Shown one piece after another: positions 15,121 to 60,607 of a stretch of DNA of 64,000 bases. The number at the start of each line of letters is the position of its first letter. The first letter of the stretch is position 1. The position numbers and the translations under genes are program-made. The DNA comes from Kappaphycus alvarezii (lineage: Eukaryota > Rhodophyta > Florideophyceae > Gigartinales > Solieriaceae): contig NADL03000655.1 of assembly GCA_002205965.3 (NCBI GenBank), positions 310,001 through 374,000 of the forward strand, in the 5' to 3' direction. The notes beneath the pieces are model-generated. The model was given only the letters and a program-made list of their open reading frames with translations. It searched no databases and was not told the DNA's origin.

Positions 15121-16422
15121 CTACCTCGCCAACCTCCCATGAATATCCTTTTTCTTGAAAGCCGTCTGCAGGGCCTGATGGTCCGTATACACGACGAACG
15201 GTTTATTGGAAAGCAGATACACTCGGAAATTCTTCAGCGCGAAGACCATTGCGAGTGCTTCTCGCTCGCTCATGGAGTAGCGGATTTCTTGTTCGGTCAT
15301 GGTCCGAGAGGTGTATTGTATCGGGTGCACCTTCCCGTTCTCCTTCTTCTGCGAGAGGACTACCCCGAGAGCAACCGAAGACGCATCCTTCTCCTCTATG
15401 AAAGCTGAGCCGAAGTCCGGAAACGAAAGCACCGGAGGCGACGTCATCTTCTCCTTTAGGTACTCAAAAGCCACCTGCATCTCGGAAGTCCACTCAAAGG
15501 CCTTCTTCACCGAAGTTGCTTCATGCGGCACAGCTGAACTATCGGCAAATTTCCTCATAAAGCGCCTATAGTACCCTGCCAACCTAAGAAAGCTTCTTAA
15601 CTCTGTCACATTCGTTGGCGCGGGGGCTTCCACTATTGCCTTGATTTTTTCCTTGTAGACCTTCACACACACCTTGCTGACGACATGACGGAGAAACTTT
15701 ACCTCTGACTGCGCGAAGCTGCACTTCGTCGCCTTAAGCTTCAACCTAGCCTCTAGGATCCTCTCGAACACTTTCCTACAATGGTCCAGATGCTCCTCCA
15801 TCCTCTGAGAAAAGATCACCACATCATCTACATATACCAAAGCGAACGTGAAATAACGCACAACCTCGTCCATCGTGCGTTGAAATGTTGCGGGTGCATT
15901 CATCAGTACGAAAGGCATCACTTCGAACTTGGATGTTCCGTATCGAGACACGACCGTTGTCTTGTCCTTACAGGCTTCGGCCATCCTCACCTGCCAATAA
16001 CCTGTATATAGATCCAGTGTCGTGAAGACCTTCGCGCCCGTTAACTCATCGAAAAGCTCCTCAATCTTCGGTAACGGCCAACGGTCCGGTTTCATGACCC
16101 TGTTCAGCTGGCGGTAGTCAACGCAGAACCGGGGTTTCTCGTCCTTCTTCGTTGCGATAACTACCTGAAAAGACCAGGCGGAACTCGGCGGCGTAATAAC
16201 TCCAGCTTCCAGTAGTTTTCCTACCTCTTTCTTAACTATGGCGTTATGCTTCGGAGGCATCTGACGAGGCTTCGAGTGTATCGGCGTCTCGTCGACCAGC
16301 TCTAAAGAGTGCAGTACCGGTACTTGGGCTGGTTCCAAATCATGAATGTCCCAAGCAATCACGCCCGTCTCCTTGAGCGCATTCACCAACTTCTTCTGGT
16401 TCTCCTCCTTGAGATGCTTCAC
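15121..16422 (-). CDS. Gypsy reverse transcriptase-RNase H polyprotein segment
   Basis: An uninterrupted 433-codon frame. RT motifs in order: PRFCVDYRQLN (residues 97-107), LDLYTGYWQVRM (first catalytic Asp at about 137), FVLMNAPATFQ (171-181) and LVYVDD (195-200, catalytic pair). The connection (TELRSFLRLAGYYRRF) and the RNase H domain (DASSVALGVVLSQ; the SEREALA block; TDHQALQT) follow. It ends at a TAG where gypsy elements have the Trp of a RLARWMDL-type block, and the same frame resumes immediately after. Role: copying genomic RNA into cDNA and removing the RNA strand. Confidence 0.9.
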   Translation of the reverse strand: MKHLKEENQKKLVNALKETGVIAWDIHDLEPAQVPVLHSLELVDETPIHSKPRQMPPKHNAIVKKEVGKLLEAGVITPPSSAWSFQVVIATKKDEKPRFCVDYRQLNRVMKPDRWPLPKIEELFDELTGAKVFTTLDLYTGYWQVRMAEACKDKTTVVSRYGTSKFEVMPFVLMNAPATFQRTMDEVVRYFTFALVYVDDVVIFSQRMEEHLDHCRKVFERILEARLKLKATKCSFAQSEVKFLRHVVSKVCVKVYKEKIKAIVEAPAPTNVTELRSFLRLAGYYRRFMRKFADSSAVPHEATSVKKAFEWTSEMQVAFEYLKEKMTSPPVLSFPDFGSAFIEEKDASSVALGVVLSQKKENGKVHPIQYTSRTMTEQEIRYSMSEREALAMVFALKNFRVYLLSNKPFVVYTDHQALQTAFKKKDIHGRLAR

Positions 16423-16523
16423 CTTCGGGACGAGAAACGCGGCGCGATCCGCTTCCTAATCTTCCTCGGTGGAACCTTCCTCCAACTTCGGGCCCTCTAA
16501 ATCGGGCTCATACGTTTCCTTGT

Positions 16524-19219: not shown

Positions 19220-20521
19220 TTAGAGTGCGTCGTCAGCATACCATCTATGTAGACTAAGCTGTGTCTGCTGGGCAATTTCTGTTGCTAATGGATGCACTAC
19301 AAAAGAAAACATAAGCATGCTTGCAGGATCCCCCTGTTGCATCCCTTCCTTGCTAGGGATGTCTTCTGCGGACGCTACGGGCAATATCAGCGATGGCGTG
19401 TTCCGAGCGTACACCATGTTGAGAAAACGACACAGCGACGGTACTTTGGTCGGCAGCAGGTTTATCATGCGCTGTCTCGAGAACCGATTAAATGCTTTGT
19501 GGGTATCCACGGATACCAGTGCATACTCTTCGTGTTGGTATTCCACCAGTCTTCGTGCTTCGTGTACAATGGAGTCCAGTCCGCCGGGCACGCCATTGGC
19601 CACTTGCAAGGGTGCGAGGTAATCTCTCGTGTCTTCTATTGCTTGTGGTAGAAGCACCTTTGCTGCGAGCCGCCGCAAGGCAGTCCCAATAGCAATGGGG
19701 CGGATCTTGTCTGGCCGAGGTTGGATGGGCAGCAGCGTCGCAGAAGAGATCAGAGGGATTGTGTCATCTGGTAAGTCCCCTTGGGCTAGTCTTGTCACAA
19801 CTGCAGTTAGCGGCGAGATGCCCGTCACACCTGCTTCAGGACTCACCGTTGTGTTGGCCAAGAATCGAAGAAGCCGAGGGTACATTCTGTCCGGACCCGG
19901 CGCGGAGTTTGGGTTCAGGCGTCGGACGGCGCAGAGGACTGCCTCCTCAGTGATGTCCATCGGGAACGGAAGGACTCTCGTTTCGATGGCCATCACAGGA
20001 GAGTTCGGTGCAGGGTGCAACTCTCGCAGACGTTCTAAACCGTGTGGGTCATGCACGTCCGCAATGTGCGACTGATGCAGGGTGCGCATCGCACGCCCGT
20101 ATTGTGCATCTGCAGCTAGGTGGGCTGCCCGTCGAAACTTTGGGTCGCGTTTGTTGTCCGTCTGGGTTTGCTGCGGGCGACGTCGGACGGTTCGCTCTTC
20201 TCTGTTCTGGTGTGCTTGAATGGCTCTTCTCCGAAGTTCACTCCATTCGCCTGCGGTGGCGCGACGGATGCGTTCACGGAGTTCTTGGCTTTGCCTTGTG
20301 TAGGACCGCCATTCGGGTTCCCCTCGCATTAAACGTTGCAAGACAGAGGTCGGGAGAAGGTGTATCCGGAGGAAGGCAGTGTGGACTGATTCCGCGCTCC
20401 GTGCGTTTGCAGCAGATCGAAAGAGCCGAATGAGCAATATGGCGAGACTGTGAATGCAATTCCCAGGAATGCGGTCGAAGATGTCGGAAGGCCTTAGCGG
20501 GCCGTGCAATGCATCATACAC
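19220..20521 (-). pseudogene. Copy A reverse transcriptase
   Basis: A 433-codon frame containing the non-LTR RT blocks: VRRLNPNSAPGPDRMYPRLL (block 1), RPDKIRPIAIGTALRRLAAK (block 3), LVSVDTHKAFNRFSRQRM (palm A, catalytic Asp), GMQQGDPASMLMFSFVVHPL (palm B) and HRWYADDAL (palm C). Two stops (TAA, TAG) follow YADDAL immediately, and the homologous sequence continues in the next frame (GPDHGLYLNHANTRLF, about 19175-19130), so a shift has occurred at that point. Confidence 0.85.
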
Positions 20522-20626
20522 CGAAGGAGGGGGGTGGTAGGGGTAAGCTGGTCGTTGGTTGCGGAGAAAATCGTCGGGGGCATCATCAGGGGCATTGTTA
20601 CGGGGGAGAGGGTAAGGAGGGAGGGG

Positions 20627-23515: not shown

Positions 23516-24467
23516 AGTTCGCTCCTAACTGTAAGCCCGGACCCATTAGTGCATATTTTCCGGAATATTAGCGAATCCATTTAATGCTAGTTCTGTAACA
23601 CCATTGTTCTATACCCCTCCTCACCTAGTGTTTCTCGATTTCATTGCCCGCTTCACCTTTTGCCTGCACAGCATATAGGCCCTCTAGATTCTTTCCCGGC
23701 GTCTTCCCGAACGAATTCCATCCTACTCCTCGGAGCCTCTGAGTGCTTGTTCCCACCGCCATAAAGATTTGCCACCCACACCTTTAATCAGTAAAGCAAC
23801 CCGAACCCGCGCCCCGTATTGTTTTGTACAGTAGTAGGTTACAGTCGTGTAGAATATCCAAGAGATATGCTGTACTGTACAGTACATTAACATGTTACTG
23901 TGGGTTTCGTTACTCATTTCTTTCAACTCGTTTGTACAGTACAGGGTGTACAGTAACTCCGTTCGTTAGATACAACTCTTGTAAATACAAAAGGAAATAA
24001 ACAATTGATTGACGCACTTGCAAAAGGATTCAACCAACCACCACATTGAGCACATTACAGAATATCCTCCTTACATCAATAAAATCCACTCATCCGCCAA
24101 CAGTACGATACAGTGCGTCAAAAACTTGTACGTCACGGACAGCCTGTCCACGTTTGTATTGACTGTCAGGAATTTGTCGGCCTGCCCGATGCATTTCTGG
24201 CCGCCACACGGCCCTGCACTCGACCACTGCCAATTCGAGGGTGACCGCCACTTGGAGCATCAGCACCTCACCTTCTGGTACTTGAATTCTGTCCATGTGC
24301 CAAATACAGCTCGATACGTCATTTCCAACAACTTTCTAAAACCCGAGAATCAACTACTCATCTGCCCTTCCTCATCTCAACGCCTCCCCACACACCTTTC
24401 CCCAACCTTCCCTCCGCCCCCGCGACTGCATTCTCCCGACCCGTCTCACTCGTCAATCCCGTCCACC
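23516..24467. other. Spacer and upstream region of the PRA1 gene
   Basis: No gene seen. Bases 23827-23955 carry several CTGTAC/GTACAG elements (for example TGCTGTACTGTACAGTACAT near 23870 and TTGTACAGTACAGGGTGTAC near 23931). The last 120 bp before 24468 are C/T-rich, as upstream of the other host genes here. The long open frame starting at 24009 is upstream read-through, not part of the protein. Confidence 0.4.
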
Positions 24468-25064
24468 ATGTCGACCTTTACCGAGCTTCAAGCCCCGGCA
24501 ACGGCTGAAACCCCGGCCCCCTCGGCGGACGCCGCCGCCACCCCTTCCCCCTCCACCCTTTCCACCCTCGCCGGCATGATCCCCTCACTCGACTCGATCA
24601 AGTCCCGCATGGGTGATGTATGGTCCCGCAGTCGTCCGTGGTCCGAGTTTCTCAACACCTCTCAAATGTCCAAGCCCGAGTTTGCAGACCTTTTCGACCG
24701 TATCAAGGAGAACTTTGAATACTATGCATTCAACTACCTGGTCATTCTGCTTGTCATGTCCGCACTCACCATTCTCACCTCTCCCCTTGCTTTTCTTGGC
24801 GGACTCTTCATAGTTCTCGCCTACTTTTATCTCTTCTTCCTCAACCCTGAACCGCTTGTCATCGCCGGCCTCACTGTGGACAACAACGTGAAAGCCGCGG
24901 CGATCACACTGTTTTCGTTGATCGTGTTGTGGTTGACTGGTGCCGGCGCAACTTTCACCGTCCTCGTGGTTGTTGTTGCCATCGTCGCAGTTACTCACGC
25001 CTCTATTCGTAGACCGCAAGGGGAGGCCGATTTTGAGACTGCCTACACCCCAGCTACTGTCTAG
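24468..25064 (+). CDS. PRA1 family protein (prenylated Rab acceptor)
   Basis: 198 residues from an ATG in a good context (CCACCATG). The frame is open for 150 codons upstream, but that part has no homology features and the PRA1-like length begins here. Residues 1-60 are Pro/Ala/Thr-rich. The conserved core begins at about 60 with RIKENFEYYAFNYLVI, a variant of the family's NxxYFxxNY signature. Two long hydrophobic hairpins follow (about 85-125 and 142-178) with the Asn-Pro-Glu-Pro turn between them; the C-terminus is acidic and soluble. PRA1 proteins sit in Golgi/ER membranes and bind prenylated Rab GTPases during vesicle trafficking. A single intact exon, one of the few undamaged genes here. 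Confidence 0.85.
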   Translation: MSTFTELQAPATAETPAPSADAAATPSPSTLSTLAGMIPSLDSIKSRMGDVWSRSRPWSEFLNTSQMSKPEFADLFDRIKENFEYYAFNYLVILLVMSALTILTSPLAFLGGLFIVLAYFYLFFLNPEPLVIAGLTVDNNVKAAAITLFSLIVLWLTGAGATFTVLVVVVAIVAVTHASIRRPQGEADFETAYTPATV

Positions 25065-31032: not shown

Positions 31033-32091
31033 ATGCCCCTCCCCGCCTTCACCACCCCTGCCCAATACCCTTCCACCTACACCCCCCCATCTCCACCAAC
31101 ACCACCCACCCTTCCAACCAACCACTCCCCAACCCCGCGTCGTCTCCGACTCCTCCCTCGCATGCACACCCCAACCACACCCCCCGACTACACCTCCGGT
31201 TTTTCCCCCGAGACCTCCCCCAATTACACGAAGTTCGCGTCCTCTCCTTCGGTCCCACCCGTCACGACGGCTCCCTTCTCACCCTACGTCCCGTGTCCGG
31301 CGGCGACCGTGCCTTCAAAATGTCCGTCACTACCGCACAGGTAGACTCTATTCGTGCCGCCCTTCGCTCCAAATGCCCCGATTCTGTCGTCTATCGCCCG
31401 GCTACCCATGACTTGTTTAAAAAAGTCATGGATTTGTTCGGGGGTTTGTCACAAAGGCAGCAATCACTCATATTCAAGATGAGGTTTTCATCGCACGCGT
31501 TTGGATCCGCGGTGGTATGATCGTCAGTCAGGAGGAGGTGCACATTGATAGTCGACCCAGTGACGCTATAGCCATGGCTTTGCGCTCACGAGCTCCTATT
31601 TACTTGCACAAAGGCTTGCTCGATGCGTGGAACGTGTCTGTCAAGTCGGTCTGCAATGACCCCAGAATGGCTTGTGTGAATGTGTCATGGATTACCCGGA
31701 TGAGGTCAAGAGCACTACCAGCATTGTTCATGAGATTAAGGGCAGTCCCGAGCATCTCACCTTGGCAAAGCTGCGCATGGAGCTGGATTTGGCCGTTCGA
31801 TTGCAACGCTTCCGCGAGGCTACCGTGTTGAAGGATCGAATCGCAGAGATTTGCCCTATCGATCGTCTCTGTGAGATGTTGCAACTTGCTATAGATGAGG
31901 AGCGGTACTTGGATGCCGCAAAACTGCAAGATCAGATTACGTTGTGGAAGGCACGACTACGAATGTGGGAAAAGGGCTCCATCGATTTGGAGAATTTCAG
32001 CGAGGACTGCCAGACTCGTGAGCCGCATCTGTTTTGGTTTCGTGCTACTGGCTTTCGGATAGGGAGCTTGGTTTTGGTTGCAACGTCATAG
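31033..32091 (+). pseudogene. Bifunctional nuclease (DNase/RNase, DUF151) with UVR motif, frameshifted
   Basis: Likely starts at ATG 31033 (CCACCATG) with a Ser/Thr/Pro-rich leader that could be a plastid targeting peptide. The nuclease domain is visible from about 31248 (FGPTRHDGSLLTLRPVSGG), through VYRPATHDLFKKVMDLFG and VFIARVWIRGG, to IDSRPSDAIAMALRSRAPIY (about 31550-31610), the family's D-x-R-P-S-D signature. A C-terminal UVR motif follows (LAIDEERYLDAAKLQDQITL, 31890-31950). Plant and algal bifunctional nucleases have this same fusion. Frame changes lie between 31033 and 31250, near 31440 (GGGGGTTTG) and near 31670, so it is either a recent pseudogene or carries sequencing indels. No introns fit these positions well. 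Confidence 0.75.
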
Positions 32092-32778: not shown

Positions 32779-33030
32779 TCAAGTCAGCAGACTGCATCCA
32801 CGATTTCCCCGCATCGCGGGGGAAATTCGAGGAAAGAAAAGAGTTGAAAGCTTTACGCACCGTTCCATGCAGTCGGTCTCGCGTGAAGTCATGCTCTTCT
32901 TGGAGACGTCGGCACACACGTTGAAACATTTGTCGGTGACTTGCTCTCGGAAAATTTCGGACATTTGGGCGTTGACCTGGGCTTCTATGCGGGCCATCAG
33001 GTCATTGGGGTTCAGAGTCGGGTCATCCAT
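32779..33030 (-). CDS. Small Tim chaperone (Tim8/Tim13 type), first exon
   Basis: Starts at the ATG at 33030 (MDDPTLNPNDLMARIEAQVN). Twin CX3C motifs at residues 35-39 (CFNVC) and 54-58 (CMERC), separated by 14 residues. VTDKCF before the first pair is like Tim13. Small Tims form hexamers in the mitochondrial intermembrane space and escort membrane proteins to the inner or outer membrane. After CMERC the reading frame meets a good 5' splice site (CGGTGCGTAAAG, about 32855) and then unrelated sequence, so the normal C-terminal helix is probably on a second exon I could not place between 32.3 and 32.8 kb. The listed end is the read-through stop. Confidence 0.7.
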   Translation of the reverse strand: MDDPTLNPNDLMARIEAQVNAQMSEIFREQVTDKCFNVCADVSKKSMTSRETDCMERCVKLSTLFFPRISPAMRGNRGCSLLT

Positions 33031-33692
33031 TGTAACTTTTGGAGATGTTGGGAGGGAGTGAAGTGCTTGGACTGGGGAGGGATTGGTTTGGTATTAATGC
33101 CACTGGAATGCGGGCGACGAGGCCTCGCTATCTATGTACTGTGCGTACAGTATGAGATACGCCACAACAATTATTCGTCGCGGATCATTCAGGGTCATTG
33201 TACTATACGGTATACACCTTAATTACATGACTCGTTTTTTAAACTGTGAAAGTAACATATTCGCACGCTCATCCGACCGTGACACCCCCAGAGCGGTCGC
33301 ATTGGGGGTTTTTATCTCCGTTACTCTAAGGGCACTTTCAGGATGTAAGTTGGCGCCTTAATTAGGGAAAGTCGGTATGCCTGATGATGCCTGATGTGTC
33401 GCCATAGTGACACACAGCCGTTACTGTAATTAATTGACCATTGACAGTTAACCCCAACGTCAGACAGTTTCGCTTCTGACTTGGCCGAAATCAACCGAGT
33501 CTCTTGTGCTCGCACGTGCACAACCGTGTCTGGGAGTCATTCATACCCGACCAGATACTAGTCCCAGTTTCGGTACTTGTTCACGTTCCCAGACTACTGT
33601 ACGTGAGACCGCGAAGGCCAAGGGTTTCGTTGTCTCGCCACTGTGTTTCCCTATCGAGATTACCTGTGTCATCTACTGATATCAAGTGAAGT
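33031..33692. other. Spacer; CTGTAC-motif cluster upstream of the Tim gene
   Basis: ATGTACTGTGCGTACAGTATGAG at 33134-33156 lies about 100 bp upstream of the Tim start (minus strand). No gene. TGTGTCGCCATAGTGACACACA near 33394-33415 is a short imperfect palindrome of the GTGTCGC type also found in the tandem arrays at 36 and 41 kb. Confidence 0.35.
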
Positions 33693-35822
33693 ATGGCTGC
33701 CATTCATGGCGCTGATCCTAATGTTCAGAACCATATCGCGCACGAAATCAACTCCTTAGACATACAGCATCTGGTGGACAAGACACTAGCAGGAAATGGA
33801 ATCGACCCAGCTGCAATTAACCTGCTTCTTTCTTTCGCAGACTCCGACATTCTCGTTGAGGCCAATGAACATGGGAGCTTGTTCTGGTTTTCTACTGTTC
33901 CGTTTAGCCAGACTATGTTTTCTATTCTAGACCAGGATGGAAACCATTCTGCCAATTGCCAAACAGTAAAATTGACTGTTGATAATGGCTTACTGGAAAA
34001 ACTTAGTGATGTGGTGGGTTCTACTCGAGAAGGGAAGCTATCGAAAACCAAGTTGAAAGTGGTTTGCACGTATCACAAACTAAGGATTGTGGAGTACCAC
34101 ACTATGCTGTCTTGTCTAATAAAAATTGGATTGAAAGGAGGAATGCTGAAATCTGCTCTCAGTGATGTAAAAGCGGCCTTTGAAGAACTGAAGACTAAAT
34201 TTAGGGAACGACAGAGAAGAGCGGCACCAAAAAAAGAGTGGCAGATGAAATTTGGTCGTGTTCTAGAGAGCAAAAGCGCGTCATTTTCATTTCGATTGAA
34301 AAAAATTGCACGCACTATGATGTCTTTAGGTTCAATATATCCTAGTTTTGACCTACCTTCTTTTCATATAAGTTGCGCTTTAGGGTGTTTCTTGTTTATG
34401 AAGGGAATTGAGGTATGGGCTGATTCGGTCGGAATTGATTTTACAAGAAGGTTTGGAAAGGAATTGATGACGTTCGATATTTGTCGTCTCAACTACTAGA
34501 TTATGATGCTCTTTTTGTTGTCGAAGGTAACTTCATCATTGAAAAGAGGAGTGCAGTACCTGCTGGACATCTTCAAAGACAGGAAAAAGCTGTGGATGAG
34601 GCATGTGAGTCCTGCGATGCGCTCAAAGAACTTTTTTATCAGTTGAGCTCTCCAATTCGGAAAAAGAAGTAAAGAAATTTGCGATGTCCATTTATGAATA
34701 TGGATCAGTCAAGTAATACGTGGAAGGAGTTCAAAGATAACGCATTGTTGAGTTATCATCAAGTCGTGGTCTGCCGACCGCAATTCGCTTGATTGCGCAA
34801 CGTCTTCGATCTGTTATCTGCAGGGAATCGGCAACTACTGCTATAGAGATGGAGTATTCTGAGGTTTTCTCCCAAGTGCAGGAGTGGTAAGATATCGCTG
34901 TTTTGCAAAGAAAAATGAAGGGGAATAATCAATCAACGTTTTGGAATACGACTTTTGCCGGTTATAGCGAGGACGGTAGGGTTTACTGTCATGTAAAAGG
35001 TCACTCAGCTTTCGTGCGGAAGTTTTGGTCGCAGATCGAGAGGCTTGCCTTGTTGCTGGAGGAACTCTAAGGCTTTCATGTTACTGTTATGGAACAGGAG
35101 GTTATAGATGGAGAACATAAAGAGGGCTACCCATCAGTTGAAATGGCAGAGGTAGTGCATAAGGTAGCTCCGACTCTCGCGCAGGTTCTTACTATACAAC
35201 ATCAGGTGTGTGAGGACATTTTTGCCAACTTTTCGTTGTATTACATGGTCGATGTAGTGGAATTATAAAAGAAGACAAAGGTACAGTCTGAGTTCCTGAG
35301 TTCGATGATATCCGCGAAAAATATCTTTTTCAACACCTATGAGGAGCGCAGTCACAAGCGGCGAAAAGATGAGCCCGAGAAAGCCGATGCTGGGGGTAAT
35401 AGTAATACTAAAAAAAGCCCAGCGCCATTTTCGCGTCGACGGATCAGTACAAGTAATGCCAGTATTGCTTAGACAGCAACAGACATACAAAAAGATGAAG
35501 TTACATCGATAAAGACCTAAGGGCAGGGCGCAACAGCAGAGACGGGGCCGGAAGGAGTGCTTCAGACGACAAATGAGGTTCAGCCACAAGCTTTAGAGAA
35601 AGAAGATTTGGATGCCGGCTTAGTAGGTGTAGTAAGAGGTCACCCTGTCGACGATATTGGGAATGCTTGCTTGATTTTTGACCCGGAGGAGCCTCCTGAG
35701 GTGGTCTAGTTCTAAAATGCGCAAGAGCAAGGACAGGAGGACAACGAAAGGGAGACGCAGAAGCAGAAAGAGAGGGTCAACAATGGGGAGGCCCCCCTGA
35801 TGAGGAGGATAACAACGGTATG
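33693..35822 (+). pseudogene. Long decayed gene of unknown function, convergent with recombinase
   Basis: Starts with a clean 268-codon frame (ATG 33693, MAAIHGADPNVQNHIAHEIN), then the coding signal passes to the next frame at about 34480 (LLDYDALFVVEGNFIIEKR) and continues with isolated stops to about 35822, ending in a charged Glu/Gln/Arg-rich tail. The joined product would be about 700 residues. Mixed helical character with a Lys/Arg-rich segment (FRERQRRAAPKKEW) near residue 170; no membrane segments or motif I recognise. It faces the tyrosine recombinase gene tail to tail, as do both gene pairs of the Harbinger elements in this window, so it may be an accessory gene of the same element. 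No function can be assigned. Confidence 0.45.
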
Positions 35823-36057
35823 AGTAGTTCGTGTTCAATTTTGGACACTTGGTGAGTCGTGATACTGGTTTAATATGTGACAGTCTCCAAACAAATGAAG
35901 AGTTGACTGTGTTGTGGTAGATTATTGTGTCAATACCAAGACATCAAGTTGACCTGCATGTGCTTGGCCACTGTTGTAGGATGGTGATACCTCAGAAATT
36001 GTGTACCACCCTCAGGGTGCATGAGGCTCATGCAATAAGCGACAAGATTTTTATTGT

Positions 36058-36352
36058 GTTGGCAGTGCGACACAGGATAAATTTCGTCGACCCGGTGACA
36101 CATTACTTGTGTTCCCTGTGCCACACAGGATACATTGTGTCAACCCAGCAACACAGTGCTTGTGCTTACTTGTGTTGGCAGTGCGACACAATTTATGGCA
36201 GTGCGACACAGGATAAATTGCGTCGACCCGGTGACACATTACTTGTGTTGCCTGTGCGACACAGGATAAATTGTGTCGACCCGGTGACACATTACTTGTG
36301 TTGCCTGTGGGACACAGGATAAATTGTTTCGACCCAGCGACACATTTTACTT
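36058..36352 (+). repeat. Minisatellite, about 53 bp unit, 5-6 copies
   Basis: Unit GTGTTGCCTGTGCGACACAG + GATAAATTGTGTCGACCCGG + TGACACATTACTT repeated head to tail, the last two full units almost identical and earlier ones carrying changes and one short insertion. Each unit contains the pair GTGCGACAC / GTGTCGAC, which can form a small hairpin. It lies in the intergenic region between the unknown gene and the recombinase. Confidence 0.85.
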
Positions 36353-38206
36353 CGTTTTCTTCACAATGATAAATTTATACCGCAATTATGTACTACATAT
36401 CTCCAACAATACTGTTGAATGTAATGGTGTCCAAAACTTGGCAATATCCTCGACACACTTCACCTTGAACATTGATTGTGATACTCTCCCCACAAAACTT
36501 AACAAATATATCGTTGCGATTCTTACGAAGTCGGCGTTCCAAACAGCGCTCTTGTACAGGAGGACAGCCTGTGTCCTTTATGGGGTGACCCGACGGCAAA
36601 ATAATTGCCTCAGTCAATCACACCTTCCGCACATCTTCATTTGAAGAAGGGTGAGTTATTGCGGACCTCCCATGCATATGCAGTCACTGCAGTGGAGTGC
36701 TGGCAGCACTCCATCTCACCTCCCTTCCATTCCTACATCGGCGGGCCGCCGACTCGACCATGGAGACAGGGTAACAGTTTTGATTGCTCGTCCTTAAATA
36801 TACTCCCCTCCCCTCACCATCCTCCATCAATTCCCTCACAGAAAACATCCAAACCCTACTAAACTACCACTCTAACTCCAACTCTGAGAGTGATTCTTGG
36901 ATTATTCCACTTCCCTCCCTACTGAGTCCAGATCTTCCTCACCCTCTTTTACTGCAGCAACCCTCCTTCCAAACGACACCCTAGTATATGCATCCAACAA
37001 ACATTTCTGCACAACACCACGTACCTCAGCGATCTTCTTCCATAATCCACCCTGTCCACATGCATGCGCCATGATGGCTTCTTAATAAGCCTTCAACAAT
37101 TTCACCGCATACCACCACCATCCAAAGAGATCTTCATGTACATGTCTGAACTATGAGGGATGTACAATAGTGGACCACTGCTGCCCTTGACGACCACTGG
37201 ACTTGTAGTTGACCTATTCAATTGTTATAATTGAGATCAATATTGTGGAACGGGTACATTATCTTGTTAGTAGCGATGAATTTCATCTGTTTAAGGTACC
37301 AGATTGGTCAGCATTACTCTCAACACCCTCGACCCATAAATGTGTTACCGTATCGTCACATTTATGGTACTCATCATTCACGCAGTACTTCATGCAGTCC
37401 ATACTTAATATTTGGGTCTCTTCATCTGCTCATAATCGCACCACATACGCAACATCTCGAGCATACAAATCCGCAACTGTGTTCATTCGGCCTGACCTTC
37501 TTTCTGTACACGATAACCCACACCATTCCCTATCGGAATCAGGCTTCCTTCGCATTCACCAATCTCAGATGTTTGATCTTGTTTCGCATGTCGTCCAACT
37601 GGTCTTGTAGACTGTTTTTGTTATGTCTACAGGAACAATATCCTTTAACGATTATGAGAGATATGTTCGATCAGGCCTTCGAAGACTTCGTACTCACCCA
37701 GCTAGCTGCCCAACTGAACATAACTTCCTCCGAGGCTCTTAACAGCAAAAACTTATTCCTGATATATGTAAAGTAATGTAGCATATTGAGGAGCGATAAT
37801 GAGCCGAAGGTGAACACAACCGGGGACTGTAAAAGGTTCGCAAAGGAGTTAATTATAAGACAGGATCGTATGAAGGTGGTTCATGACCCGGATGTGGCCG
37901 TGAAGGATTGGAAAAGGTGAGCTGGAAAAGACCCCTTCATCGGAAGAATTACTGCCCAAAGGCGCCCAGGATTTGTCACCACTCCTCGCGATGACTTCGG
38001 TGACGTGATGTGCGGCAATTCTGGTCTGCTATGTACCGACCTTGCAGGCTTATGTTCTTTGAGGTGCTCATTCTGCTCACGCCCATTGAACGCCACATGT
38101 GTTAACAAATACATCGACACAACCACATGGCAATACGACGACGTTGGAAATGCCATAAATGTTGTTTTCTTCAACTGCGCTGTTGACTCGGAGGACGAAA
38201 ACTGAT
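36353..38206. other. Intergenic stretch without recognisable gene
   Basis: A few 60-180 codon frames (for example 37231-37776 plus) show no domain. The only coding-like piece is a short plus frame near 37650-37775 (MFDQAFEDFVLTQLAAQLN), which I cannot assign. Confidence 0.35.
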
Positions 38207-39941
38207 TCATTCGCACAAATACATGGCTTCTTTACTGTGCAGTTCCTCACTCAGATGTCTCCTACCTGTCCTTATAAGGCTCTTAAATTCAACAGTTGTC
38301 ACGTTATATGGATCGTACATATCAATAAAAGCATCCTGTCCCAGTCTAATGTACTGCTCCGCTATTAGCTTCCTATCGTGATATTTAGACTTGAATGCGG
38401 ATGTATGAGCTCTATCAGGCCATTCCTTAAGAGCGAAGACGAGATTCTTTTGGGGGCATCCCGACTCCCAGTGGGCAATTACCTCCCTCCAGTTTTGCAC
38501 TCTTGGTATTGATGTGCATTTGCGGACAATGTCGGTAAGCGCCATTTCTAATCTCATTCCCACCCCCGCGATTGCTCTTTCCAAGTTATTGCTTTGACTG
38601 GCGGTAAATCTAGGCAGAGTACGTGACTCAATTTATTTCACTGCTTTTGTGACCTTGGCAGTCTGGACGGAAATGTACAACTTGATCCGCTGTTCCAGAT
38701 CATTAAACGACTTCCCAACCTCATCCCTGAATCCTGATATTTAACTTCCCAGCTCCTCATTCGTCTTCATGGGTGCTCCCAAATCCAAATAATTACCTCT
38801 CGTGAACAAATAATGGCTGTAAATCTCTTCGTATTTCCACGTCTCCTCAAGCAAATATCTCATGATAGTGTTAACATCATCTCCCGACCCCTATCCACCC
38901 CACCACTTCACCACATGTAACAGCCACCGATTATGAACAGTTAGAAACCTGTGCTGGGCTAGCACCCGACGGAAACAATGCAAAGTGAAATTTCCAAGTT
39001 CCTCCCCCGTTACACTACGAGGAAATATGCTGCATCTGTCAACCCATATGTTTATCGTCTTCATGAAATTTTGTGTGTTCATTTTCTCCCCCACAGCCAG
39101 TTCTTTAACCAGATCGTCTGCGCGGAGAAAAAGTGGGTCTTCTTCTGAGAAATCTCTGTTCAAAACTCTTCGATACGTTCTAATCCAACGGTGCAAGTGT
39201 GTGCATGCACATGTGCAGGGCTCATCCTGCATTTCATATAACTCGTACATCTGTCCCTCGCTTGACTGCTCGAACTTGCGATTCCTCAGCGTTACTTCAA
39301 TATGGGGCACCCTTTGATCATTCATAGCGTCCAATTTCACATCGGCCCATCTAAGTGATATGAGCTCGTCTATTCGCAACCATAATGTGAAAGACAAAGC
39401 TGCGGCAGCCATAAAATACGTCGCTTCTAGCGATTCAGATCCAATTCTCCGTGCACACTGCATCATCTTGTCCATGTATTTGTACCGGAACGGCAGTGAT
39501 GTCTTGTAACCGACATCTTTCTTTCCGAGCTTGTAACACTTCATACATCCTTCGATTTCCGACGCATCAACAGGACTCCCCTCTGTCCTACCCCCAAAAA
39601 CGTCCTCTATCTTCCTTCCCTTCCAAGACGGCGCTTTAAAACGCTTGCTAATCCCGATCGTATGTTAACTACCTCACCTGGATCGCACCGTAGCTCATCT
39701 ACTTTGTAATGAAAAAAACCAGCTATTTTCCCAGCTATCGCTTCGCTGGGTTCCCGTGGACCATCAGGATCAACTGCATGACTTTTTTCACCCTGAACGC
39801 TTTCATTCAAACAAAAATATACCATTTTATATCATAAACGGACTGAGTGGACTATCGTACGAACTCCTCTGTTGTAATTTCGGCTTGTAATCGACGATCT
39901 TCAGATGTCATCACTCTTAATCGCTTCTTAGATGGAGCCAT
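38207..39941 (-). pseudogene. Crypton-like tyrosine recombinase with GCR1_C-like DNA-binding domain
   Basis: Begins at ATG 39941 (MAPSKKRLRVMTSEDRRLQA), shifts near 39835 and again near 39620 (IRSGLASVLKRRLGREG into KIEDVFGG), then runs as a long frame from 39544. Recombinase residues: Arg in LWLRIDELISLRW (codon near 39376), His and Arg in LHCFRRVLAQH (about 38980), the WWGG block (about 38900), a TAG at 38891-38893 where a Trp is expected, and then in the same frame TIMRYLLEE with the nucleophilic Tyr. After a coiled linker the GCR1_C-like domain follows (VQNWREVIAHWESG...WP...SKYHDRKLIAEQYIRLG, 38500-38330). This pairing is typical of Crypton DNA transposons, which integrate by recombination. 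Terminal features were not found. Confidence 0.7.
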
Positions 39942-40924
39942 TTCCCATTCAGCGATACTAACCACAACAAATACTCACTTCACTGGCCTTGTGGCATAGA
40001 AAGTTAAAAACGTTAGTTTTGAGGCCTATTGTATTGTATGGTATGTGATTGAAGGAGAATATTGGTGGAGAAACAATAGGCTGGATCGTATGTTTAGCGC
40101 ACTGAAGCATTCAGTAAAAGTTCTGGAAGGGATCAAATGGGAAGTGATGCAGTTCCGGATTAGAGAGATAGGAATGGGCAACTGGGAAAAAGATTTTTTT
40201 CAAAAATATAAAGAGTAGGTTAGTCAAGACATTAAATTTGGCAAGTGGATAGTTCAGTTACGTCAAACAGAACTCTTTCTGATAGTAATATCTAGATGAA
40301 AAGGTGACAGAGGTGACAGAACGATTTCGGTGACGAAATATGCCGGCTTATGTGATTGAAGCAGCGACGATTCTTAGCCACGATGATGGGAGCGGCAAGG
40401 GAATGAAAACGGCAACGAATACGATGCTATGGTAATGCAGGAGTATTGATGACCTAACAGATGGAAGCGTAAATAATATTGGGTTTTTGTCAGCGAGACC
40501 GAGATCGCGACTGGAGCAGGAACGAGGTAGAATCTGGGTGAAAGTCGGGTGGATGACTAAACGGAGACAGGGAGGGAGCCAGAGCGAGACTCAAAGCGAG
40601 AACGAGAGCGGGAGCGGTACCTGGATTAGTCCGTTGATGGCATGCGAGTTGATGTAAAGTGGTTCTTAGCGTTGAAGGAAATGTAACTACGAAAAGACGA
40701 TGATTTACGTTGGTGGTTCTTGTATTTTAAAGGGAGGTGGGGTGGAGGTTGTAATGATGTCGGTGATCGGGGTGAGGATAACGGAAGGAAGAGTGATGTA
40801 GGTAATCGGGTTGAGTTTCAGTCTTATGAGGATGTCCACGCTTTCCGATTAAAATGAAAACACCCGCCTTTTTGTCGATATAACGACAAGAGTGTAGAAA
40901 TTCAATTGTGCTGTGTTAACCCCT
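39942..40924. other. Upstream flank of recombinase, no gene
   Basis: No frame of note on either strand. 40550-40620 contains a purine-rich GAGCGAGAC-type degenerate repeat (AGCCAGAGCGAGACTCAAAG, AGCGAGAACGAGAGCGGGAG). Confidence 0.4.
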
Positions 40925-41065
40925 TTTCTAAAATTATAGAACCGTGTCGTAGCCCCGATAACGTTATAGATTTGTGTCGCACCATCGACAAAATTGTAGA
41001 TTTCTGTTGCCACTCCGACACGCGCAGGTGCGACACATGTGTCGCACACGCGACACAGTTCTGTT
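40925..41065 (+). repeat. Short tandem array, about 30 bp unit, plus GTGTCGC palindromes
   Basis: At least three diverged 30 bp units: TTATAGAACCGTGTCGTAGC..., TTATAGATTTGTGTCGCACC... and TTGTAGATTTCTGTTGCCAC.... They are followed by GCGCAGGTGCGACACATGTG and TCGCACACGCGACACAG, overlapping palindromes. The GTGTCGC core is the same as in the 36 kb minisatellite. Confidence 0.6.
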
Positions 41066-42733
41066 CAAAAATTTTTTGTCAACCCTCTGCGATCACGCAT
41101 ACTTATCGCCGTCCATTTACCATTACATTGCCGTGAGTTGAAGTGAGTATCAAAACTTCGTACATCCGAGAATGTTGGTACAGTACACCACTATTCCTGT
41201 TTTTTTTTACTCCTTGTTCATAATATACATCTTAAACAGTACTTGAACATCTTCTAAATGATACAATTAAATTCATATTGGTGTTATTGCTATTAAGAAC
41301 AACATTATCTGGTTGTATTCATGTGAACATGAACATGAGAGTGATTTTGATGCCAAATAATGATAGAGTTAGGTGATATAAGTATGACCCTTGAAGCATC
41401 TCATAACTCTTAATATTCTGCTCAATGATAGCCTTTAGCGGCTCTAATTGTTGTTAAACCCATAGAAGAACCAATATCACCATCAAGTTTGTCACCAAAA
41501 GTAGGTAAATACTTGTACTTTTCCATTTTTATCTATATACACTCACAAAACCACCTGTACTTGCCCATCCGTCATATGAAGAAATCTTATGTCCCTCTAA
41601 ACTATAAAATACTTATTTCTCCTTCCTCGGCTTGAGGGAGTTACAAAAGTTCAAAAACAACACTCATAGATGTGATGTATCATGACGAATTAATGCATTA
41701 ACAACATGTTATTTCTGATGTCCGGATGCCTGCCGTGGACATATTAAATTATTTCCATCGTCAACCGACTTTTGCTGATTGCGACTTTGCATTTTATGAT
41801 GAAGGATGATGAAAGCAATGAGTAGTGCCGATTTATATCGAGAATTTAATACTTATCTCCATCACCTTTGCTTGTTCAGTGCAGTTCATTTATTAGTTAG
41901 TGCTCACATGAATACCACCATAGTGGTTATATTAGAATGAACTAAACATTTCTCGCCGCATGTTTATATACCCGTTCACCTTCCCCTTCCGGACGTCATT
42001 CAATTTTTATAACGATTTTTATTCAGTCACTTAACCTTATTATATCTGCACTACAGCAATATATGAAGCACTCCACCTCAGAGTACACAGTTAATAACAC
42101 ATTTAGTTGGAGTGAATCACAATTTCATCTTCACTGTTTGATTTATCCTACCATGCTCCCAGAACCTCCATTTTAATACTCTTTGCAATTCCTAATGTAA
42201 TTCCTAGGCACTATTGCTATGAATCGCGACTAAAGAAGGGGATTTGCTACATCGTATTGTGAATTTAGTAAGCTCTGTTTCACTTTGAGTTGATCTTTTC
42301 TCAAGCACGTCTCTACGTAAAGCTTTCAAATAATAAGAACAAGTATTAATGGCTTTATTCTGGATATCATTGGTAAAGAAGTCATAGAACTAAGCAGCTT
42401 TGAGCACTGAAGAGCATCTCTATGCCTCGATTACGACGCTTACGCCAGTTCATTCTGCACAGATTAATCTTATTGTTTAAATAATTATTTTTGGGGGGCT
42501 CTTGGCAACTACAAAAGTATCAATAACTAGGTCGTATTCTATTTCGAATAATTTGCAAATGTACCCTGGAAGTACCGGAAATGCCGCTTCTACATTTGGG
42601 CCCTTTATATGACTTGAAAGGTGACATGAAATGACCGTGTAAGTATACAATTCTCAAAAAATTGGTTGCAAGCATGACGATTTCGGCGGCCGCCGTTCCA
42701 ACTTCGCGCCCACTCCATAAAAAGTAATGAAGA
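41066..42733. other. AT-rich stretch without recognisable gene
   Basis: No frame over 60 codons except a 73-codon minus frame at its right end. No domain, RNA or clear repeat seen. The base composition is clearly more AT-rich than neighbouring host genes, as also seen in the transposon-rich 33-44 kb block. Confidence 0.5.
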
Positions 42734-42830
42734 ATGTACATACGGCCATACTAGGTTATGTCACGCCAAATGGTAAAATATGAGTCGAAGGCGAGCTTGC
42801 AAGGGCCACGTCACGCTAAATGGTAAAATA

Positions 42831-43020
42831 CAGTGCACGAAATAAAATTAAGGACACCTGACGAGCCCCTTTGGGAACCAGCCTTCTTTTACATACCGTT
42901 TCGAAGAGCTTTTTAAACTATATGAAGCTATCTAACCAAAACAAAGGAAGTCGTGATCATGTTACATTAATAGTAAAAAAAGGTATGAGAAATTTTTTAA
43001 GGCCGCGAAATAATACATGG
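42831..43020 (+). repeat. Mariner left terminal inverted repeat
   Basis: About 190 bp, matching the complement of 44193-44400 with an extra 20 bp or so in the right copy. Much longer than the 20-30 bp typical of mariners. Confidence 0.85.
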
Positions 43021-44192: not shown

Positions 44193-44400
44193 CCTACATA
44201 TTATTTCGTGTCCTTAAATTATTTCTCATACCTTTATGAACTATTATTTTAATATGACCGTGGCTTCCTTTTTTATGGTTAGATAGCTTTATACAATTTG
44301 AAAAGCCCTTCGAAACGGTATGTAAATGAAGGCCGGTGCCCTTAGGGTTGCGAAAATACGGTATGCTCGTCCGGTGTCCTTCATTTTATTTCGTGCACTG
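44193..44400 (-). repeat. Mariner right terminal inverted repeat
   Basis: Inverted partner of 42831-43020; ends in TCGTGCACTG. Confidence 0.85.
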
Positions 44401-44709
44401 CATGAGCTGGGGGCGAGCTCGCGAGCCTCCGGCTTATACTTTACCATTTAGCATAACATAGCCTAGTATGGTCGTATGTACATGATATGTTTTTTTTCCC
44501 CTTGTGCCAATACTGTACGCGGTCCAGACTTTCCGAGTTCAGGGAGCGCTCAGAATCGGATTTGGCTTCAGGACGAAATCTGACTGATGGTACTGTAGCA
44601 AAAAGACGCTGTACTAATCCCGCCAATGGTTTGATTACAAATACAGAGGACTCTCAACCGTTCCATTACTCGCAGTAAACTAAACCAATTTTCCCCCCCT
44701 TTACCACTT

Positions 44710-56521: not shown

Positions 56522-57409
56522 CTAACCGCCCGACCCAGTACAACCATCACCCCCATGCTCACCCTCCATCCACTCCCTCATACGCTCAAACACCGCAAAG
56601 AAGAGCCCCGACCCCACCGCCTCCTTCCCCACCTTCCAAACGCCGCCCTTCAACAACGCCTCCCCCCCACCTCTCCCCACGGCACCCCATCCACCCCCCA
56701 CAAGCACCCGCGTAGCCACCATATCCATCGGGGCCGCCACTCCACCCGCCACCCCACCAGCCACCATTCCCAGCGCCACCAAATCCAGCCCTGTCAACCG
56801 ACCCCTCACCCTCAGCCACCGTCGCTTTGCCCACTCATACACCCCAAACTCCAGCACCTCGAATGGCATATCGCGCAACAGCCCCACAAACGTCCCACGC
56901 CACAACTCGCGCCACCCCACACGAGCCCACCCCGTGCGCCCCAGCACCCGCACACGCTCCCGTGTCACCTCGAACGGCGTTGTCACCACCCCACTCGCCA
57001 CACATGCAATCCCTGCCGACACCATTGCCACAAACTCCGGTCCCTTCCCACCACCACCCCCACCCCGCTCTTGCTGCAGATGTTTCACAGACGTGGAAAA
57101 CACGCCGGTAAACACGGCGGCATCCAGCGCATGACCCACCAACGCAGGCAACGCACCTGCGAAAAGTGCGCGGTAAGGATGGGGATGGGTGTGAGATACT
57201 TGCAAACGAGCTTTGAGGGTGTCGAGGGGGTATACGCACAGGGCGACGATGGATTCGGCGACGGCGCCGGAAAGAGCGGAACGAAGTGTGGGGAGGGGGG
57301 AAGGGGAACTGGAGGGGGGGGAGAAATACGCCGCCGGGGCGGGGGTGGCAGGGGTGGCGCAGGGCAATCGTGGCTTGCAGGGGACGCCCCGGACGGTGGA
57401 CGTGGGGCG
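56522..57409 (-). CDS. Mitochondrial carrier family protein (SAM-carrier-like)
   Basis: The frame has the threefold carrier signature: PLDTLK-A-R at residues 47-54, PFEVTRER at 131-138 and PMDMVATR at 213-220 (numbered from 57367), each at the end of an odd-numbered helix, about 83 residues apart, and Gly-rich loops after each. The third repeat has Ala in place of the usual Lys. PLDTLKARLQ and the overall pattern resemble S-adenosylmethionine carriers; mitoferrin-like carriers are an alternative. It would exchange a solute across the mitochondrial or plastid inner membrane. There is no in-frame ATG before the first motif: the frame is open back to 57438 with TACTAAC at 57448-57454 and CCCACAG ending at 57410 on the coding strand, so this is probably exon 2 after an intron. 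Confidence 0.8.
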   Translation of the reverse strand, partial: RPTSTVRGVPCKPRLPCATPATPAPAAYFSPPSSSPSPLPTLRSALSGAVAESIVALCVYPLDTLKARLQVSHTHPHPYRALFAGALPALVGHALDAAVFTGVFSTSVKHLQQERGGGGGGKGPEFVAMVSAGIACVASGVVTTPFEVTRERVRVLGRTGWARVGWRELWRGTFVGLLRDMPFEVLEFGVYEWAKRRWLRVRGRLTGLDLVALGMVAGGVAGGVAAPMDMVATRVLVGGGWGAVGRGGGEALLKGGVWKVGKEAVGSGLFFAVFERMREWMEGEHGGDGCTGSGG

Positions 57410-57456
57410 CTGTGGGGAGGGATGTATGGTGGCGGAGGGCAGTGAGGGTTAGTATT
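57410..57456 (-). other. Predicted intron 3' end (branch point and acceptor) of carrier gene
   Basis: The coding strand reads TACTAAC, about 35 C/T/A-rich bases, then CCCACAG directly before the carrier coding exon. TACTAAC is the consensus branch site of yeast-like introns and the spacing to the acceptor is normal. The donor and first exon upstream (57.5-57.8 kb) were not identified; the Ser/Thr-rich minus frame 57455-57775 has no carrier-like features. Confidence 0.5.
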
Positions 57457-59109: not shown

Positions 59110-60423
59110 CTACAATAAAGAAGCGCCTTTTTCTTCCCACAAGTGGTCCATTACTAACTTCCGAGTATTGTAATACTCCGTCGCATTCATTGTAAACGAT
59201 GTCACATTGCACAAGGAAGCAAGCGAGCCAGGCGGTACTACTGTATTTTCGTCCATCGATTCCAAAGATCCCCACATTGGCATTGCTTCGTCTCCAATAG
59301 TAACGTCTTCCGCAAGTTCTTGTTCGTCAAACGATCTCCCAGAGTCAACTTCCCTTTCCTCCACGCCAATATTGTGAAGTATAATGACACACTTCATTAT
59401 TTTGTGCATCAGCGATTTGGACCAGAACCTTCCTGGACGAGAAATAATATGCCGCTTTCCTTTTAGTACTCCGAAAGCTCTTTCTACGTCTTTGCGGACA
59501 CCCTCTTGGCCTTTTGAGAGCATTTTCTCCTTTGCGGTGAGCGGTTCTAAGATCATATGCAAGAAGCACGGCCACATGGGGTAAATTCCATCAACCATCC
59601 AGTATGGGACATTTCTCCTCTGTCCACAGATATTATATTCTATAGGAGGCGGATATGACCCATTGGCAATGTTAGACAACAAGGGAGAACAGTCCAATAC
59701 ATTGATGTCATTACAAGAGCCAGGCATGCCGAAAAAGACGTGCTAGATCCATAATGAGTCATCCGCAATAGCTTCTAAGGTAATTGTTGGAACAACTTCC
59801 TTTCCCTCGAACTGCCCATGCCAAGCGGTCGGGCAGTTCTTCCAAACCCATTTGCAGCAGTCCAGGCTGCCAAGCATCCCTGGGAATCCCCGCTTCTCGA
59901 AACGGCGCAGTATCCTTTTTAAATCTTCTTCTGTTGGAGAGCGCAGATATTCATCAGCAAAGTTATCTACGACAACTGTAACAAACTCTTGAAGACATTG
60001 GTCAGTTGTTGAGGATCCGATGCGCAGGTACTCATCAACAGAGTCTGATGCACAACCGTAAGCAAGATAACGCATTGCTGCGGTTGCTTTTTGCAACCCT
60101 GTCAGACCAAGTTTTCCAGTACAGTCCCGTCGCTGTGTGAAATAACGATATGTCTTCAGAACGTCGTATATTCGGAAAAAGGATCTTCTTGAGATGCGAA
60201 AGCGGCGTTTAAACAGTGCTTCGTTGTATACGGGTTCTGAGCTGAAGTAATCTTCGAATAGACGCTGTGCGCCTTGCAGGCGGTTGCGATCAATATTGGC
60301 TGCTCTGCCGGGTCTTGATCCACCTCTTTGTGGTTCCTCATCGTCGCTGTCGGAAGACAGCAACTCATTTAAAGTAGTGAAGAGACTATCGGACGTCAAC
60401 TCCTCGAGAATGTAAGCCTGCAT
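59110..60423 (-). pseudogene. PIF/Harbinger transposase, one nonsense codon
   Basis: 437 codons from ATG 60423 (MQAYILEELTSD) in one uninterrupted frame except a TAG at 59743-59745. Acidic N-terminus, then FKRRFRISRRSFFRIYDVL, AYGCASDSVDEYLRIG and the catalytic core: first Asp in GSLDCCKW, second in YWMVDGIYPMWP, Glu in DVERAFGVLKGK; C-terminal KCVIILHNIGVEE. The TAG sits in DSLWI-stop-HVFFG where relatives have WIWHxFFG, so it is a Trp codon changed by a single base. All catalytic residues remain. The frame ends 54 bp from the accessory gene's stop on the other strand. Confidence 0.9.
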
Positions 60424-60607
60424 GGCTTCCGATACAGACTGTTTCAAAGGAATTGGCGCCGTGCGGAGTTTTGGAGTTCAGCACCTGCCAAGTATAAGCC
60501 AAGTACGAGCAATGCGTCAATGGGTTTGGTTTGGCCGGTGGGGAAACACGGCTGTGAACAAAAAATCAAAAGGGCAAAATTTTACACTACCAATCAGAGC
60601 TCCCCAC

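Follow-up and report, generated by a model that had tools for sequence, protein, structure and literature searches.

Introduction

Cryptons, among them CryptonF and CryptonS, are DNA transposons that encode a tyrosine recombinase (YR); passages of Kojima and Jurka 2011 (PMC3212892) describe a second gene in some oomycete Cryptons and call the boundaries of Crypton-type YR transposons difficult to define. Cryptons have short direct repeats of 4-6 bp at both ends, and in CryptonF a GCR1_C DNA-binding domain follows the recombinase domain. DIRS and Ngaro elements have a reverse transcriptase (RT) and RNase H beside the recombinase. The Starships of fungi combine a tyrosine recombinase with accessory genes, the captain recombinase being a DUF3435 protein. 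The yeast 2-micron plasmid combines a tyrosine recombinase with two more proteins and a locus of tandem repeats; its STB has an array layout, and summary accounts attribute partitioning of the plasmid to Rep1, Rep2 and STB. Polinton-like viruses with a YREC integrase also place a tyrosine recombinase in algal genomes and, according to PMC12220804, are 14-40 kb long.

The window (the whole stretch of 64,000 nucleotides that was analysed) contains a decayed element with a tyrosine recombinase gene, here called R, and two further genes, A and B. Its tyrosine recombinase and the absence of a visible reverse transcriptase in the unit are held in common with the Cryptons as portrayed in passages of PMC3212892. 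It differs from them in its two accessory genes, neither of which matches the C48 peptidase in Pfam, in its length of 9.6 kb, in giving no GCR1_C match, in that no constant 4-6 bp terminal direct repeat was found, and in its arrays of a fixed 20-bp palindrome. A first, sequence-only reading had called the locus Crypton-derived; the recombinase and the lack of an RT match agree with this, no GCR1_C match and no shared short terminal repeat were found, and Crypton membership is unproven. Unlike DIRS and Ngaro, the element has no RT or RNase H match in its 13 frames. Compared with Starships it has no DUF3435 match, its recombinase lies inside the right end and points inward, and it is smaller than Starships are known to be. 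The 2-micron plasmid has the same kinds of parts, whereas the present unit is chromosomal, multi-copy and bounded by fixed ends. No Pfam match ties A or B to viral genes, and the element is shorter than the Polinton-like viruses.

No such red-algal element was found among the titles and abstract openings listed in searches of open-access papers; Repbase holds 1181 Chondrus families. In the present case, copies within a single genome fix the two ends of the unit, show a three-gene order that recurs, and reveal a candidate protein-binding site with exact spacing, which makes the role of accessory proteins and internal sites in YR transposition testable, as well as the existence of a stable circular stage. 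The locus is probably a member of an old family of YR-encoding DNA transposons with two accessory genes and arrays of putative dimeric protein-binding sites.

Sequence data and searches

The genome searched comprises 336,021,096 bases in 884 contigs. Match rows of R and A were merged into places by hand, and match counts for the genome are lower bounds. Thirty R loci were cut out. L010 represents the window; among the remaining 29, five agree with the window in DNA sequence along almost all of the stretch cut out (close copies), and 24 are diverged. The downstream side was taken at seven diverged R loci chosen blind to content and at an eighth, L031, chosen because A had already been seen there. 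The palindrome counts were compared with 101,805 bp of control DNA: 54,469 bp of the window outside the element, 24,096 bp from six other genome loci (L002-L005, L008 and L009) that had themselves been selected for their GTGTCGC pairs, and 23,240 bp of DNA flanking the copies on the outside.

Extent and ends of the element

Five close copies elsewhere in the genome are about 85% identical to the window at the DNA level: C1, C33 and C49 along the whole unit, C837 and C668 up to an insert. On the left, C1, C33 and C49 stop at 33243, 33244 and 33249, respectively. On the right, C1, C33 and C837 stop at 42803 and C49 at 42800; C668 is covered only to 42669. Because the copies stop sharply at 33243 and 42803, these positions delimit the unit:

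33243..42803, no strand: whole element, from the ends of the copies, about 9.56 kb
33243..33252, no strand: left end; copies agree from about TWACATATTCGC inward
42734..42803, no strand: right-terminal 70 bp, with an inverted copy also at 44424-44490

The borders are thus conserved, three copies fixing the left end at about 33243 and three the right end at 42803, and the element reaches beyond the limits first proposed on both sides, where a size of about 7.7 kb had been given. Outside the ends the copies do not continue the window's sequence, shared repeats excepted; in C33 and C49 the flanks correspond to window sequence situated about 4 kb away, and C837 is adjoined by an inverted copy of the element end. 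Compared in bins of 500 bp, C1, C33 and C49 share 85-92% of aligned bases with the window throughout, which indicates one unit that has decayed evenly. Decay has affected the window copy as well as all five close copies. A comparison of the junctions in four old copies found no constant direct repeat or target duplication.

In C837 and C668 a different sequence replaces most of gene A, starting beyond the point that matches window position 35424 (L040, L043); it is 87.5% identical between the two copies, and its peptides look retro-like by eye. This common insert suggests either spread after the insertion or a segmental duplication.

Gene content

33693..35822, plus strand: gene A, protein without assigned family, predicted mostly helical (low confidence); decayed after 34499
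37623..38205, plus strand: gene B, located between the array and R; decayed, encoding a small, zinc-finger-like protein rich in Cys
38207..39941, minus strand: gene R, tyrosine recombinase; decayed, stretch 39664-38891 open

Gene R begins with an ATG at 39941 and ends with a stop at 38207; its reading frame is broken by internal stops and by shifts, and a stretch of 257 codons is open. It lies about 2.9 kb inside the right end. A joint alignment of R pieces, most of which share no overlap, was discarded as probably misaligned. Its core matches Pfam Phage_integrase with an E-value of 0.0081, below the Pfam cut-off. Among the 30 loci, the R of RIDEL is kept in 18, the H and the R of HxxR (which reads HCFRR) in 20 and 23, and the Y of TIxRYLL in 24; these correspond to the catalytic residues (R-H-R-Y) of tyrosine recombinases. 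The family has at least 149 match rows, corresponding to at least 87 places, in its own genome. R matched no solved structure in the PDB by sequence and nothing in phages; a single 20-residue match in viral contigs was taken as chance. With E-values up to 10 allowed, and with HMMER filters that drop most weak matches, GCR1_C was not matched in P0001 or in six R pieces, nor was DUF3435 matched by R.

Gene A starts with an ATG at 33693, is open to 34499 and continues in other frames, with stops, to about 35822. Its relatives in the genome account for at least 101 match rows, or at least 72 places, and protein identity in the diverged loci is roughly 31-44%. A search for an ordinary host orthologue of A in Pfam, PHROGs and the PDB gave no convincing match, and viral contigs gave no match to A at all. 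A profile of A matched ZapD in the PDB (E 0.0035), which was taken as a helical, coiled-coil-type match. AlphaFold2 models were all helical with 12 alignment rows (pLDDT 53) and reached pLDDT 34 from the single sequence, too poor for a fold search.

Gene B, missed in the two-gene count of the sequence-only reading, which had A and R right, ends 1 bp from the end of R. It was recognised at 24 of the 30 R loci, namely the window, the five close copies and 18 of the 24 diverged loci, and was not found at L023, L026, L028, L031, L032 and L034. In the 24 loci the cysteines C90, C108, C111, C142, C145 and C104 are kept 16, 18, 15, 18, 19 and 11 times, and the histidines H47 and H116 15 times each; this recurrence of Cys and His residues suggests that B is a zinc finger protein. 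RING-, C1- and PHD-type zinc fingers of Pfam matched weakly, each in one of 16 members (best E 0.0091). A match of one member to PilI (E 0.0071) was taken as chance.

The frame across the array has one weak Pfam match, DUF7630 (E 0.0013). A fourth gene was looked for in the 2.85 kb upstream of R: no peptide of at least 30 aa encoded there reappears in the 24 diverged loci, where the flanks on that side span 1.5 kb.

Linkage of A and R across the genome

The convergence of A, on the plus strand, upon the recombinase is present as first described, and it recurs elsewhere. Of at least 72 A places, 57 have R within 12 kb, and all 57 pairs are convergent; random placement would give 0.45 A-R pairs. 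Counted from the recombinase, 56 of 87 R places, and 28 of the 40 best R matches, have a convergent A no farther than 12 kb away. The remaining 31 R places are without a convergent A in that range, and 30 of these are without any A, many matches being fragments. Among the five closest copies, A is present in three, and the other two keep only a short end of it. The downstream side of the seven diverged loci chosen blind carried both A and palindrome sites in all seven.

Fifteen of the 72 A places have no detected R within 16 kb, for example C590:503665, C824:725941 and C22:5670. The strict palindrome described below lies within 4.6 kb of three A places lacking R (C513:1623839, C598:1422943 and C26:101582).

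Palindromic sites and arrays

The repeats of the element reduce to one 20-bp palindrome, TGTGTY-N8-RACACA, which occurs as follows:

33395..33414, no strand: exact 20-bp palindrome near the left end
36054..36346, no strand: 53-bp tandem array with six exact palindromes, at 36055, 36136, 36171, 36244, 36272 and 36297
40870..41060, no strand: region upstream of R with one exact palindrome (41038-41057), degenerate half-sites and a 30-nt inverted pair

The 53-bp array reported earlier between the genes is real (TRF 36054-36164 and 36201-36346), as is the palindrome near 33400, which obeys the same 20-bp rule as the array and as the site at 41038. A 30-bp array upstream of R was absent from the TRF output. 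Instead of just the GTGTCGC/GCGACAC cores first singled out, the repeats share one 20-bp palindromic site. Exact GTGTCGC pairs with a 12-bp period were rejected as a family tag: they occur at 7 places, equal to the 7 of a reversed control, and at E 1e-3 these seven loci show no match to the element. The 20-bp inverted site, by contrast, is a useful tag, with which the family may be sought in other algae.

All eight exact sites of the window lie inside the element and none in the remaining 54,469 bp, so their distribution is not due to chance. The spacing is strict. Family DNA contains 130 sites with a spacer of 8, and each of the other spacers between 0 and 24 accounts for no more than 2; with flanks, the 130 comprise 128 distinct sequences, and since neighbouring stretches overlap by up to about 200 bp double counting is possible. 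The window element contributes 8 sites at spacer 8 and 1 at other spacers, the five close copies 17 and 1, the 24 diverged R loci 47 and 2, and the stretches L049-L056 58 and 2. The controls had no site at any spacer from 0 to 24 in 101,805 bp. At least one exact site is present at 22 of the 30 R loci and in all eight downstream stretches; the eight R loci that lack an exact palindrome in the approximately 3.7 kb examined include two close copies.

Adjacent to the arms there is a preference for G and C, giving TGTGTCG-N6-CGACACA, with T in place of C as CpG decay would produce; conservation of the six central bases is weak or absent. In its strict form the site is found at 58 places in the genome, compared with 1 for a reversed-pattern control. 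The array unit differs among subfamilies (20-21, 26, 31, 53, 62 and about 90 bp) and the 20-bp site is constant. Downstream of A, TRF arrays with the motif were obtained in six of the seven stretches L049-L055, with units of 26, 31, 62 or about 90 bp; the array of L053 has another unit, and L056 has no array by TRF. Shorter TRF arrays of 20-21 bp lie upstream of R in L018, L020, L022 and L037.

A fixed 20-bp inverted site combined with free spacing between sites is the trace expected from a dimeric binding protein. A crossover site would need matching centres, and as the centres vary the site is read as a putative binding site instead.

Interpretation

In full units of the family R lies on one strand and, on the other, A and the zinc-finger-like B point at R, with palindrome arrays between A and B and fewer sites upstream of R and near the left end. 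R would cut and rejoin the element, and a circular intermediate, which has been proposed for Cryptons, is the probable route. A protein encoded by the element (A, B or the C-terminal part of R) may bind the 20-bp sites as a dimer, and this protein would either assemble the recombination complex or control the genes of the element.

Instead, the element might exploit a transcription or chromatin factor of the host, for which the palindromes would be the sites. This is considered unlikely, if worth keeping in view: the sites flank A, B and R, and binding by a protein of the element is itself deduced from the pattern of the letters. Against it, 45 of the 50 listed strict sites lie within 8 kb of R, where 0.2 would be expected, and three of the other five within 4.6 kb of A, which brings 48 of the 50 near one gene or the other; outside the element, the 54 kb of the window contain no site even of the looser form. 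Since the strict site hardly occurs apart from the family, a host factor would find this exact form at few host loci.

The same list of parts (a tyrosine recombinase, two further proteins and a tandem array as candidate binding locus) would also be expected if the copies were remnants of an integrated nuclear plasmid organised like the 2-micron circle, in which R recombines and A and B bind the array for hitchhiking on chromosomes or partition. Sites also occur upstream of R and near the left end and not at one locus only, and a transposon would equally account for the many sharply ended copies in the chromosomes; a plasmid origin is judged quite improbable. A similarly small probability is given to an undescribed class of eukaryotic selfish DNA that arose independently of the 2-micron circle, a plasmid-like YR element integrating into chromosomes, whose two-protein system would read the arrays of 20-bp palindromes as a partition, tethering or copy-control locus.

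A, B, the palindromes and R could further be passengers of a transposon moved by another transposase, with the YR as an accessory. No terminal repeat typical of Cryptons was found, the right-terminal 70 bp of the element recur in the repeat at 44424-44490 and, inverted, in the flank of C837, and large multi-gene EnSpm elements are reported from a red alga, the Chondrus families being given as 16-20 kb with 4-5 ORFs in PMC6431247. None of the 13 frames of at least 80 aa at 33243-42500, however, matches an RT or a DDE transposase in Pfam, the search upstream of R yielded no recurring peptide in the 1.5 kb flanks of the 24 diverged loci, and the copies end sharply on both sides; passenger status is accordingly held to be very doubtful. 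That a host gene, minisatellites and a recombinase remnant became neighbours by chance, as the decay of all pieces might suggest, is refuted to near certainty by the 57 convergent pairs against 0.45 expected and by the five long copies, which bear out the earlier proposal that the pieces belong together. The YR transposon family with accessory genes and internal binding sites thus remains the preferred explanation.

Genomic surroundings

The window is rich in transposon pieces and has a few host genes. Likely host genes are those for a PRA1 protein (24009-25064), a UVR-motif protein (31672-32091), a Tim10-type zinc finger (32779-33030) and a mitochondrial carrier (56522-57448). Other transposon genes encode an RT with RNase H (15121-16455), a second RVT_1 protein (19220-20626) and a Plant_tran protein (59110-60477), the last of which we take to be of Harbinger type.

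To the right of the element an inverted pair, 42734-43015 and 44199-44490, comprises the 70-bp right end and about 200 bp of flank and is 73.9% identical; near 44411 there is possibly the start of a second related element or a shared target repeat. In copy C49 (L047/L044) about 55 extra bases lie just inside the 70-bp right end, and by eye they resemble the sequence beside the inverted copy at window position 44490.
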